DNA of 22,726 nucleotides from a virus. The notes under the pieces were generated by a model. It saw nothing but the letters and a program-made list of their open reading frames with translations. It had not been told where the DNA came from and ran no database searches. The DNA lies in IMG/VR virus record IMGVR_UViG_3300006350_000027, positions 1 to 22,726 of that record, one strand, 5' to 3'. Below, piece after piece: positions 10,708 to 21,530 of this stretch (positions are counted from its first letter, which is position 1; the number at the start of each line of letters is the position of its first letter). A program made the translations under genes and the position numbers.

Positions 10708-10735
10708 TTGAAATGGTCGGCCGCGGTGCTATAAT
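10708..10735 (+). promoter_or_regulatory. Plus-strand sigma70-like promoter
   Basis: TTGAAA (10708-10713), a 16-base spacer ending in TGC (extended -10) and TATAAT (10730-10735). It points against every gene in the window and would transcribe into the repeat region, giving a non-coding RNA. Confidence 0.6.
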
Positions 10736-10745
10736 AAAGGTAAGA

Positions 10746-10763
10746 AGTTCGAGGGTACGAACT
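10746..10763 (+). ncRNA. Hairpin at the 5' end of a possible plus-strand RNA
   Basis: AGTTCG-AGGGTA-CGAACT is a perfect 6-bp stem starting about 10 bases after the -10 box at 10730-10735, where a short structured RNA would begin. No ORF follows on this strand. Confidence 0.35.
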
Positions 10764-10817
10764 ATAAAATCTTCGTCACAGCCGCTGCGATGAAATATTA
10801 TTAGCAACACTAAGTAA

Positions 10818-10872
10818 CATTCTCAATAAGAAAAACTTAATGAGAATCAATAACGAATCCTTATTGAGAATG
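10818..10872. repeat. Inverted repeat with 13-base arms
   Basis: CATTCTCAATAAG (10818-10830) and CTTATTGAGAATG (10860-10872) are perfect reverse complements. A variant, CTTAATGAGAATC (10836-10848), lies in the loop. The same unit returns in the cluster at 11426-11496. Confidence 0.8.
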
Positions 10873-10876
10873 AGAT
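10861..10876. repeat. Left copy of 16-base direct repeat
   Basis: TTATTGAGAATGAGAT occurs identically at 11481-11496, 620 bases away and in the same orientation. The two copies bracket the acidic 50-residue ORF and its promoters. Confidence 0.8.
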
Positions 10877-10879
10877 GAG

Positions 10880-10921
10880 AAAAAAAATGCGGTGTGACAC
10901 CTCATAAACCTGCACACACCG
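10880..10921 (-). terminator. Rho-independent terminator
   Basis: On the minus strand, CGGTGTG (10915-10921) pairs with CACACCG (10890-10896), or a shorter GGTG-TCA-CACC stem forms. CA and then eight Ts follow (10880-10887). It ends the transcript of the 50-residue ORF. Confidence 0.75.
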
Positions 10922-10932
10922 TGCATCACCCC

Positions 10933-10962
10933 CACATCCATGTGCTATAATGTAAGGATGTG
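10933..10962 (+). promoter_or_regulatory. Plus-strand -10 box inside an operator-like dyad
   Basis: An extended -10 box, TGC-TATAAT (10943-10951), is enclosed by CACATCC (10933-10939) and GGATGTG (10956-10962). Transcription from here would run antisense through the ORF at 11022-11174. No good -35 box is visible. Confidence 0.45.
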
Positions 10963-11021
10963 AGTATCTAGTACGTATGTATCATAATGTATGTGTGAAT
11001 GTACACATATCTCGTAGTGCA

Positions 11022-11174
11022 TTATGCGTAATGTATGTATGCAAGCTCTGTGTAATCATATGAATCTCGTGCGTATTCCTCGTCGAGATCCCAAGTATCT
11101 TGCATATTGTATGTGTAATTCTCGTCGAGATAATCGTGTGATGAGATCTCGTAGTCCCAAATGAAGTCTTCCAT
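11022..11174 (-). CDS. Very acidic 50-residue protein
   Basis: A 50-codon ORF starting MEDFIWDYEISSHDYLDENY. About 15 of the 50 residues are Asp or Glu and only one is Arg, with eight or more Tyr and no Lys, so the protein would be strongly negative. A textbook promoter (TTGACA-N17-TATAAT) lies upstream and a strong terminator downstream, making a monocistronic unit. The ribosome site is poor. Size and charge recall phage DNA-mimic inhibitors, but I know no homologue. Confidence 0.6.
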   Translation of the reverse strand: MEDFIWDYEISSHDYLDENYTYNMQDTWDLDEEYARDSYDYTELAYIHYA

Positions 11175-11209
11175 CAGATCTAGTAGAGAATTGTACTTTG
11201 TATATAATG

Positions 11210-11238
11210 ATTATACATGATCTCGACTAGATTGTCAA
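11210..11238 (-). promoter_or_regulatory. Perfect consensus sigma70 promoter
   Basis: On the minus strand, TTGACA (11233-11238), exactly 17 bases, then TATAAT (11210-11215). It is the best match to consensus in the window and drives the acidic 50-residue ORF. Confidence 0.9.
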
Positions 11239-11276
11239 GTATCTCGTAGTGAAATCTCGTAGTAAAGATCTCGTAC
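11239..11276. repeat. Three direct repeats of ATCTCGTA upstream of the promoter
   Basis: On the plus strand, ATCTCGTAGTGAA, ATCTCGTAGTAAAG and ATCTCGTACC follow each other with a 13-14 base period, directly upstream of the -35 box of the acidic ORF. Further copies of ATCTCGTAGT lie at about 11009-11018 and inside the ORF at about 11146-11155. They look like operator sites for a regulator. Confidence 0.65.
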
Positions 11277-11291
11277 CAACACATAATAGTA

Positions 11292-11299
11292 TATTTATA
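11292..11299 (-). promoter_or_regulatory. T4-type late promoter
   Basis: The minus strand reads TATAAATA, inside the palindrome AGTATAAATATACT. It would give late transcription of the acidic ORF in addition to the consensus early promoter. Confidence 0.55.
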
Positions 11300-11425
11300 C
11301 TATAAGCACTTATAATGTAACGAAATACACATATTCTGGGAAATTTCCGATCCTGATACTTGACAGATCGCTCGTCTCATGCTACGCTCCCTAAGCCAAC
11401 AAGAACTGGCCACCTTTATGAGAAT

Positions 11426-11496
11426 AATAAGCACTATTGAGAATCATTAATGATGCTTATTGACTATCAATAAGAGAGTGTTATTGAGAATGAGAT
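11426..11496. repeat. Cluster of CTTATTGA(GAAT) repeats and dyads
   Basis: AATAAGCA (11426-11433) pairs with TGCTTATT (11454-11461). CTTATTGA-CTA-TCAATAAG (11456-11474) is a perfect dyad. TATTGAGAAT occurs near 11435, and the 16-base repeat TTATTGAGAATGAGAT lies at 11481-11496. Together with 10818-10876 this makes about seven copies of one unit. Confidence 0.75.
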
Positions 11497-11510
11497 AATT
11501 AACAGTTTTA

Positions 11511-11518
11511 TATTTATA
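11511..11518 (-). promoter_or_regulatory. T4-type late promoter
   Basis: The minus strand reads TATAAATA exactly. It lies just outside the right 16-base repeat, with no gene start close downstream, so it would transcribe the repeat region. Confidence 0.5.
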
Positions 11519-11575
11519 AAGCCATTTAAAACCTATTTTTTAATACATTATGTATCAAAGCCTGATACATTTTCT

Positions 11576-18904: not shown

Positions 18905-19876
18905 TTAATATAGCACCTCAACCAGAGGATTCAACTTCTCTTGTGACAGTTCTTTTACTGCCACATCGGCCATCTTGATTGCATCAGGGTTCACGTCAGT
19001 TGTGATACAATTTCTATCAAGGTTCAAAGATGCAATAGCAGTTGTTCCTGATCCACAAAAAGGATCCAGTACCCATCCGTCAGGTGGGCAACTTGATTTG
19101 ATTATTCTTTCTAATAGTTTTAGAGGTTTCTGAGTAGGATACTTTCTCTTGTTCTTCTCACTCCTCGATATAAAATATACATCATCCCAGAAGTTCTGAA
19201 CTGGAACTCCCTTAGACTCATGAGAGTATATCTTTTTGTATAACATATTCTTACCATAATGTAGTAAGTTCTGATCGTCTAGTGCTTTAAGTTTCTCTTG
19301 TGCTATTCTAAATCCGTACTCTGGGTTGTAACCCTTATACTCATACTTAGCACACGGCCTACTCTTCTCTCCTGTAACTTTTGCTAGTGCATAGTAACCA
19401 ACTTCATCCTTATTCTTGAAACTATTTGCTTCATATACTGGATCTAGTGATCCATATTCAACCTCAAAATAGGGGTTGCCTTTTTTGATAACCATGATAG
19501 AATCTACAATATTCCCCCATCCATTCTTAATATTATTCTTCGGCCCTGATCTCTTCCATGATATATTTGTATAGAAACTATCACGTATCTCAGGTATTAC
19601 TTTAGATAATAATAAAGCATTACCAATAAAATTATTATGTAAATACATCCATCCGTTCTTCTTTAACTTATACCATGCTGAATGTACAATATTAGCATAC
19701 CATATAATATAATCATCAAATGAATCCCATTGATCGGAAAATCCCTTCTTCTCTCCATCTTTCTCGACCATAGTGAAGTCACGTTGTAGTCCGAAAGGTG
19801 GATCCATGTAAATTAAATCAAAATCTTGCTCTATATCCTTTATCTTCTCAGCAGGCTGTTGCTTTATCTCGATCAT
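18905..19876 (-). CDS. Beta-class DNA methyltransferase (N6-adenine or N4-cytosine)
   Basis: A 323-residue S-adenosylmethionine-dependent DNA methyltransferase. The catalytic motif IV (DLIYMDPPF, DPPF at 25-28) precedes motif I (VLDPFCGSGTT, 269-279), which is the order of beta-group enzymes. PTQKPLKLLERII before motif I is also typical. DPPF favours N6-adenine. No restriction partner lies nearby, so it is an orphan enzyme that could protect phage DNA or alter host regulation; this is consistent with the ArdA-like gene elsewhere. A TAGACA-N17-TATAAT promoter precedes it. Confidence 0.9.
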   Translation of the reverse strand: MIEIKQQPAEKIKDIEQDFDLIYMDPPFGLQRDFTMVEKDGEKKGFSDQWDSFDDYIIWYANIVHSAWYKLKKNGWMYLHNNFIGNALLLSKVIPEIRDSFYTNISWKRSGPKNNIKNGWGNIVDSIMVIKKGNPYFEVEYGSLDPVYEANSFKNKDEVGYYALAKVTGEKSRPCAKYEYKGYNPEYGFRIAQEKLKALDDQNLLHYGKNMLYKKIYSHESKGVPVQNFWDDVYFISRSEKNKRKYPTQKPLKLLERIIKSSCPPDGWVLDPFCGSGTTAIASLNLDRNCITTDVNPDAIKMADVAVKELSQEKLNPLVEVLY

Positions 19877-19897: not shown

Positions 19898-19926
19898 ATT
19901 ATAGCAAATATTATCCGAATTGTCTA
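19898..19926 (-). promoter_or_regulatory. Sigma70-like promoter nested in the halogenase 3' end
   Basis: On the minus strand, TAGACA (19921-19926), a 17-base spacer ending in TGC and TATAAT (19898-19903). The -35 box lies in the last codons of the halogenase gene. It drives the methyltransferase. Confidence 0.75.
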
Positions 19927-21530
19927 ATATTTTTCATATTATTTTCTTCCATTGCCTTCTCTTTCTCAGAACTGATCATTCTCTCATTAAGTGTTGGTTT
20001 ATATTCTAGTGCTTCAAGATGTGGTAATCCTTTATTAGCATTTCTTTTCATTTCTTGCAATCTTCCAATTAATTCTCTTCTCCATACTCTATTATCAAAA
20101 TATGTCTTGGCTGGATACCCACCTTCCTTTTCCATTAATTGATGTAACCAAATTGCCCAATTATGACCACCAAAGAATCCATGTCTCAATACTTTATATG
20201 TTGGATAATCAGGATCCATGATAGAACTCTCCATCATTTTCTGAAATCCAGATTTCTTAAATGTTTTTCTAACATGATCCCAAAATGGACTCTGGATATG
20301 TGAGTAGTCATAGTGCATACTAATGAAATCTACAGCAGACTCATAATCATTTATCATTTTCATATTATATTGTTTCTGATCCATCCAATCATAACACCCA
20401 CCAATTAAACTATCCTCTAGTAGTTCTATTCCATTAATAATGAAACCAATTCCAGTACTTTCTAATGGTTCAATGAATCCACCAGATAGACCAATATTAA
20501 TTACATTGCCTTCCCAAAACTTACCAATTCTACAGGGATCCCAATTTATAACTCTTAAATCTTCCTTCTTAAATCTACCATTCCAATGCTTAACAAAACA
20601 TTCCTTAGCATCCTCAGGGTCAGTAATATGTCTATTAAATACATGACCTGTTCCTATTCTAGTAGTCAATGGTGTTTCCCATATCCATCCATGATCAGTA
20701 GCAGTAGCAGTTGTATATGGATGTAACTCTTTCTCTTTATCAATATACTGTACTCTCGTAGCAACAGCAGTATCTACAAATAATCTATCACTATAATCAA
20801 TGATCTCTCTTTTCTCTGATAACAGTCTCTTAAATCCAGTACAGTCAATGAATATATCTGCTTCATTCTTAGTACCATCAGCCAAGTCTAATGATGTTAT
20901 ATTATCATCATCCCAATGTATATTTTCAACAGTTGAATTGATGTATGTAAATCCATCTGCTCCCTTAAGATTTTTAATTAAAAACTCAACATATTTACCA
21001 CAATCTAGTTGCTCAGAATATGCTGAGAGTTCATCTATCTCTACTTTATTCTTAACTAAAGAGGGAAAGAAATATAATGATGACGGATAATCAATATCAG
21101 GATTGGCAGATAGAACATCACCAAATGGTATTACAAACTCACCACCATTTGAGTCCTTAGTGTGGAAGTGATACTGACCAAATGGATGATAAATTGTTTT
21201 ACCATCTTTACCCCAATTAGGATACATGATACCACCTTTATAAGTAGCATCTACAGCCTCCATCCATGCAGTAGGATCACTAAATCCACAATATTGCATA
21301 AACTTATTAAAGTTTAAAAGATTTGCTTCTCCTACTCCTATTCTCTCAGGTACTTCCTTATCAATTAAAGTTACATGAGCATGATGAAAAGCAGCTGCTC
21401 TTCTTACACACCAAACAGCAGTCATCCAGCCAGCAGTACCACCACCGACTATCGTAATGTTCTTCACATTTTTCATTTCATACTCAATGGTTTTTCTACC
21501 TGAGACATCTTTTACTTTAATTCCTTTCAT
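19911..21530 (-). CDS. Flavin-dependent halogenase (tryptophan-halogenase family, VirX1-like)
   Basis: A 539-residue enzyme. GGGTAGW (29-35) is the FAD-binding signature of the family. GVGEANLLNF (65-74) and DATYKGGIMYPNW (94-106) give the catalytic Lys at 98. The GWIWETP stretch (281-287) is the WxWxIP motif with T in place of I. EPLESTGI (354-361) supplies the active-site Glu at 357. These enzymes use FADH2, O2 and halide to form HOX, which the Lys carries to the substrate. Phage members include VirX1 from cyanophage Syn10, which prefers iodide. Counted from the in-frame ATG at 21473, the Lys becomes residue 79, as in PrnA, so that start is a real alternative. A near-late promoter (TATAAATT) lies just upstream. 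Substrate is unknown. Confidence 0.9.
   Translation of the reverse strand: MKGIKVKDVSGRKTIEYEMKNVKNITIVGGGTAGWMTAVWCVRRAAAFHHAHVTLIDKEVPERIGVGEANLLNFNKFMQYCGFSDPTAWMEAVDATYKGGIMYPNWGKDGKTIYHPFGQYHFHTKDSNGGEFVIPFGDVLSANPDIDYPSSLYFFPSLVKNKVEIDELSAYSEQLDCGKYVEFLIKNLKGADGFTYINSTVENIHWDDDNITSLDLADGTKNEADIFIDCTGFKRLLSEKREIIDYSDRLFVDTAVATRVQYIDKEKELHPYTTATATDHGWIWETPLTTRIGTGHVFNRHITDPEDAKECFVKHWNGRFKKEDLRVINWDPCRIGKFWEGNVINIGLSGGFIEPLESTGIGFIINGIELLEDSLIGGCYDWMDQKQYNMKMINDYESAVDFISMHYDYSHIQSPFWDHVRKTFKKSGFQKMMESSIMDPDYPTYKVLRHGFFGGHNWAIWLHQLMEKEGGYPAKTYFDNRVWRRELIGRLQEMKRNANKGLPHLEALEYKPTLNERMISSEKEKAMEENNMKNIRQFG

Follow-up and report, generated by a model that had tools for sequence, protein, structure and literature searches.

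A conserved, repeat-rich island as a candidate replication origin in T4-like cyanophages

The island at 10818–11496 of the window is probably a replication origin of T4-like cyanophages (Kyanoviridae), perhaps their principal one; from sequence comparison, we put the probability of this reading at roughly 60%. The window is the whole stretch of DNA that we analysed, i.e. all 22,726 nucleotides of IMG/VR record IMGVR_UViG_3300006350_000027. The reading is drawn from a promoter that points into a set of spaced sites and then into an easily melted stretch, from the single-copy and syntenic placement of this arrangement, and from the presence of DnaA boxes in several lineages. The anatomy, conservation and uniqueness of the island, as well as the enrichment of sites within it, are direct observations. 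The original prediction had offered an origin, a cluster of regulator-binding sites or a mobile unit; the origin is the best supported of these and the regulator cluster is its main rival, while comparison across phages speaks against the mobile unit.

The repeats on which that prediction was built are present where it placed them. Specifically, the left side carries the 13-base inverted pair, with perfect copies of CTTATTGAGAATG at 10818–10830 (minus strand) and 10860–10872 (plus strand), and a copy with one mismatch lies at 11480–11492. The right-hand dyad, 19-base CTTATTGACTATCAATAAG, is at 11456, and the 16-base perfect direct repeat TTATTGAGAATGAGAT occurs at exactly 10861 and 11481, i.e. 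620 bases apart. The left cluster as a whole (10818–10876) also includes CTTAATGAGAATC at 10836–10848 and CTTATTGAGAATGAGAT at 10860–10876, both on the plus strand, and is kept in five other loci (L018, L024, L052, L056, and L060), with a shorter version in L008. In 500 dinucleotide shuffles of its sequence, the longest repeat averages 9.5 bases and is always shorter than the direct repeat of the island, and an inverted pair of 13 bases is reached in 35 of the 500, making that pair alone the weaker evidence. Copies of CTTATTGAGAATG with up to one mismatch are confined to the island across the 22.7-kb record, and exact TATTGAGAATSA is found three times in a 152-kb related contig, always within the equivalent island; as such, the repeats are not scattered at random sites. 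A further inverted repeat, TGTATC...GATACA at 11551–11569, recurs imperfectly in relatives.

Early, late and plus-strand promoters were also predicted here, and all three kinds are found. The early promoter at 11238–11210 (minus strand) is a perfect TTGACA-17-TATAAT (12 of 12 positions), the late-type sequence TATAAATA is at 11518–11511 (minus strand), and rightward promoters lie at 11360–11388 and 10708–10735. The first of these rightward promoters, which a simple promoter scan misses, reads TTGACA-N14-TGC-TACGCT (TTGACA-17-TACGCT) with an extended -10, and it opposes the genes; its transcript would start near 11394. Matching DNA is detected by BLAST in S-SKS1, P-SSM2, P-SSM5 and one marine single-cell virus, and their alignment reveals two strongly kept blocks, namely this promoter and an AT-rich element at 11509–11543 (TATATTTATAAAGCCATTTAAAACCTATTTTTTAA), which contains the minus-strand TATAAATA.

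Both blocks lead to the same architecture in a much larger set of viruses. A scan of IMG/VR with the AT-rich element returns 76 loci, nearly all of which, where enough flank is available, carry TTGAC about 100–310 bases upstream, and a scan with the promoter returns at least 120; once redundancy is removed, 109 loci are left. These 109 loci, from T4-like viruses of ocean and freshwater cyanobacteria, share one order: first CTCGACGAG palindromes that overlap a small acidic gene, together with a leftward early promoter, then the opposing rightward promoter, a lineage-specific cassette and the AT-rich stretch. Named phages with the island include S-SKS1, P-SSM2/5, S-SRM01, SynMITS9220M01, Sf-CH5, and S-SCSM2R; it falls at 65.8–66.2 kb in P-SSM2 and at 151.0–151.5 kb in S-SKS1. 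Diverged forms are present in S-PM2 (about 19.2–19.35 kb) and Syn9 (about 52.57–52.7 kb), each with TTGnnn-N14-TGC-TA, AT-rich DNA and clustered DnaA boxes, and in P-SSM4 (about 51.1 kb), with TTGACA-17-TA, AT-rich DNA and GGATACTATCC. The promoter geometry in S-PM2 and Syn9, and the promoter spacing in P-SSM4, are retained despite changed sequence. In P-HM2 we find no convincing island, and in P-TIM40 only a weak version, both of which count against an origin. We located gene 25 (PF04965) in 13 records; recognisable islands lie 3.5–10.5 kb upstream of it, with the promoter directed against the genes.

Of 15 long records, 12 have a degenerate form of the rightward promoter a single time, and none has it twice; S-SKS1, SynMITS9220M01 and the L018 contig are at least one position off this motif. 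The exact core has 9 matches in 257 Gb of cellular genomes, about the level of chance, versus at least 120 viral contigs. With such chance-level matches and no plasmid match, a host origin of the promoter was rejected. Three bacterial metagenome-assembled genomes (L284, L287, and L289 among the genome_contigs) carry the phage promoter motif, perhaps through phage contamination. No conserved RNA fold was found in the first ~45 bases that would be transcribed from this promoter.

The AT-rich element, about 110–120 bases past the expected start site of the promoter, is a candidate DNA unwinding element. In S-SKS1, P-SSM2, SynMITS9220M01, and the window, nearest-neighbour energies place it among the least stable 0.02–0.3% of 40-base windows, and some 10–20 other places per record are equally unstable, so that its instability is supportive and not specific. 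A role as a terminator was considered and dropped: some relatives have a hairpin here, which is absent from the window.

Between promoter and AT-rich element lies the repeat cassette (11434–11497), which in the window consists of three sites related to the dyad TTATTGAnnnTCAATAA, each about 17 bp (11434–11450, 11457–11473, and 11481–11497) and spaced by 23 and 24 bp. The same place is taken in other lineages by three DnaA boxes or by other repeats. By the rule used, 16 of the 109 loci have DnaA boxes, 34 have TATTGAGAAT-type sites (including the window and S-SRM01), 8 have GATACTCAAG/GATACTATCC and 4 have ACAGATT repeats. The remaining 47 cassettes fall outside all defined classes, which counts against an origin; some of these loci have DnaA boxes past the AT-rich element. 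Identity between lineages is 73–94% in the promoter part and 77–93% in the AT-rich part versus 43–66% in the cassette, the last by forced global alignment; on this comparison the cassette appears to be exchanged between lineages within conserved frames. Cassettes hold sites of the window's class at 11 times the density seen elsewhere; these sites were selected with the TTATTGAnnnTCAATAA consensus, and their dyad shape is therefore partly built in. A Fur box was also considered, the half site being Fur-like, and was dropped in view of the dyad TTATTGAnnnTCAATAA, variable at its centre, that the cassette sites make up.

The DnaA boxes are strongly concentrated at the island. We count 63 in 32 kb of cassette versus 18 in the remaining 808 kb of the same contigs, i.e. 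an 88-fold higher density. Their spacing is 21 and 21 bp in S-SKS1 and 21 and 31 bp in the L025 contig. Boxes are otherwise scarce in the diverged phages: S-PM2 has 9 genome-wide, of which 3 fall within 34 bp at the island, and Syn9 has 4, of which 2 fall within 33 bp there. Some lineages thus have a cluster of boxes beside the AT-rich element; the window's own cassette has none, which counts against the origin reading, as does the fact that DnaA is also a transcription regulator. In S-PM2 (NC_006820, 19177–19333) the clustered boxes overlap annotated tRNA-Asn and tRNA-Leu genes, and these annotations may be wrong. In S-SKS1 (~5400–5500 of L002) about five tandem 22-base units (GAAGGTTTATAAGAGTATTAGA) stand between promoter and DnaA boxes, and many relatives have comparable TTTATAAG repeats after the promoter.

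For the events at the island, i.e. transcription, protein binding, melting and priming, we infer the following course. Host RNA polymerase would transcribe rightward from 11360–11388 early in infection, and proteins bound at the cassette would help to melt the AT-rich element; these would be host DnaA where DnaA boxes occur and, in the window's lineage, some protein that recognises TTATTGAnnnTCAATAA-type sites. The transcript would then stay hybridised at the AT-rich element, or the bubble would be used directly, so that leading-strand synthesis is primed and the phage helicase and primase are admitted, as at T4 oriF and oriG. More tentatively, and at somewhat under even odds, a fixed frame of opposing promoter and AT-rich opener may hold an exchangeable initiator cassette, served by DnaA in some lineages and by another protein in the window's. 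If so, the choice of initiator would be swapped by recombination, with phage replication tied to the host initiator in some phages and freed from it in others. GC skew in three whole genomes is monotone and follows the gene strand, with no reversal or strand switch at the island; because nearly all genes are on one strand, skew cannot decide on an origin.

The island had been described as a gap between genes, and its left half is not gene-free: a small gene at 11022–11174 (minus strand) encodes 50 acidic, tyrosine-rich amino acids (...DLDEEYARDSYDYTELAYIHYA). Relatives of the product are found in the loci of most lineages, ending ...YARDxxDYxxLAYxHYA; SWZG_00191 of S-SKS1 corresponds to it by position and C-terminus, and no Pfam or PHROGs family matches the product. 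Conserved coding sequence across the region would have told against a regulatory island, and it amounts to this one gene, about 150 of the 680 bases, while the promoter, cassette and AT-rich element are non-coding and conserved in place.

An array of ATCTCGWCGAGAT-type palindromes extends over 11079–11231 (11079–11089, 11120–11130, and 11221–11231), and half sites of related sequence continue to about 11275. Upstream of the promoter, 53 kb of sequence hold 216 palindromes that fit TCTMGWCKAGA, versus 9 in 808 kb elsewhere, and in P-SSM2 a 13-base form (up to one mismatch) occurs four times, only at the island. Inside the small gene the palindromes encode LDE, a tripeptide spelled CTCGACGAG in 94 of its 113 occurrences there versus 0 of 35 elsewhere. 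Their density is nevertheless higher outside the gene, with 156 in 14.1 kb, than within it, with 38 in 13.0 kb. This codon choice and the greater density outside the gene indicate that selection acts on the DNA of the palindromes, and an explanation by coding sequence alone was rejected on the same grounds.

These palindromes would probably be operators of the adjoining leftward early promoter, and perhaps also of the origin. They gather upstream of the start codon, often 10–19 bp away, and one sits within the spacer of the perfect early promoter of the window, a position that is operator-like as judged from sequence. Of 104 loci, 58 have a leftward consensus promoter, and in 16 the spacer holds a palindrome. 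All of this fits a reading in which the island serves transcription only: the early and late-type leftward promoters and the palindromes would regulate a long leftward block of small early genes, the rightward promoter would adjust the output of this block through an antisense or regulatory RNA, and the cassette would bind regulators, not initiators. The presence of TATAAATA within the AT-rich element fits as well, and, given this overlap in the window, the conservation of the element could be partly for transcription, which weighs against an origin. We nevertheless regard this reading as rather unlikely, because it leaves unexplained both the repeated DnaA boxes in the cassette and the single-copy, syntenic placement, and because S-PM2 and S-SCSM2R retain the AT-rich stretch without the late-promoter sequence.

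The close packing of a single palindrome, with few copies beyond the island, could suggest a packaging or partition site, similar to pac or to a centromere. This is very improbable: SynMITS9220M01, Sf-CH5, S-PM2, and P-SSM4 have no palindrome matches and keep the promoter and AT-rich element, and, to our knowledge, T4-like phages package by the headful, without a fixed pac site, and have no need of partition. Least probable of all, and largely refuted, is the proposal that the 16-base repeats bound a mobile or recombining unit of 620 bases, which draws on the perfect direct repeat and on an imperfect inverted pair, 36 bases long, at its ends, because both clusters and everything between them are kept at about equal spacing in close relatives, no empty site is seen among the relatives examined, no recombinase gene lies inside, and all of these relatives share the frame, distant phages with other repeats included.

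Just left of the island, the region 10708–10803 may encode a small RNA, as suggested by its sequence. The sigma70-like promoter at 10708–10735 (plus strand; TTGAAA-16-TATAAT, 11 of 12 positions), whose TATAAT block is also found in relatives, precedes a candidate structured RNA at 10746–10803 (plus strand). Its hairpin at 10746–10763 is paired in all six compared sequences, with changes on both sides in three of its six pairs, and is followed by a block TTCGYCAC...CTGCGATGAAATATTATTAG. The candidate contains the conserved block TTCGYCACTCCCCCTGCGATGAAATATTATTAG, and 17 distinct RNA sequences occur in related loci. A second helix of four pairs is only half paired and is not supported, and an Rfam search of the region returns nothing credible. 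Elsewhere in the window, a 539-aa open reading frame at 19911–21530 (minus strand), which looks like a flavin-dependent tryptophan halogenase, adjoins a DNA methylase (PF01555) at 18905–19876.

T4-like cyanophages rank among the most abundant viruses in sunlit ocean waters, and in the literature we searched there is no experimentally mapped origin for them. A description of this element was likewise not found there; many subscription papers lay outside the search, and priority is not established. The origin becomes testable through a candidate that is conserved, present once per genome and precisely located in the well-studied phages P-SSM2, S-PM2, Syn9, and S-SKS1. The reading would also account for a non-coding, repeat-rich gap that annotation leaves blank or fills with doubtful genes, and, given the DnaA boxes, some T4-type phages would be borrowing the initiator of their host.

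Among known systems, the best reading of the island is an origin similar to T4 oriE and oriF, with exchangeable sites for an initiator or regulator. The T4 origins oriF and oriG combine a promoter with an AT-rich unwinding element and use an R-loop primer, and oriE combines 12-nt iterons with an early promoter (PMC3016281). Similar to oriF and oriG (ori(uvsY) and ori(34)), the island has a promoter followed by an AT-rich element, with gene 25 nearby. Its conserved, single-copy TTGACA-N14-TGn-TAnnnT motif is directed into the putative origin, where transcription would lead, and the downstream element is a candidate for unwinding by stability calculation. In T4, uvsY is adjacent to gene 25. The island differs from oriF and oriG in having repeats or DnaA boxes between promoter and AT-rich element, and in having a host-type promoter, with a full -35 TTGACA and an extended -10, in place of a MotA-dependent middle promoter; on the latter count it is outside the oriF/oriG class. 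It shares with oriE evenly spaced short repeats near an early-type promoter (23 and 24 bp in the window; DnaA boxes at 21 and 21 bp in S-SKS1), but these are dyads of ~17 bp, DnaA boxes or other sites that are exchanged between lineages, not 12-nt direct repeats. Some lineages resemble bacterial oriC and DnaA-dependent plasmid origins, with three DnaA boxes in the same direction 20–30 bp from an AT-rich stretch, whereas the window's lineage is without DnaA boxes and the promoter and palindrome array are extra. We know of no T4-type phage that uses DnaA. Finally, a single theta origin is predicted for Syn9, according to a review (PMC2984593); this would likewise be a single origin in a T4-like cyanophage, and the Syn9 island lies at 52.6–52.7 kb.
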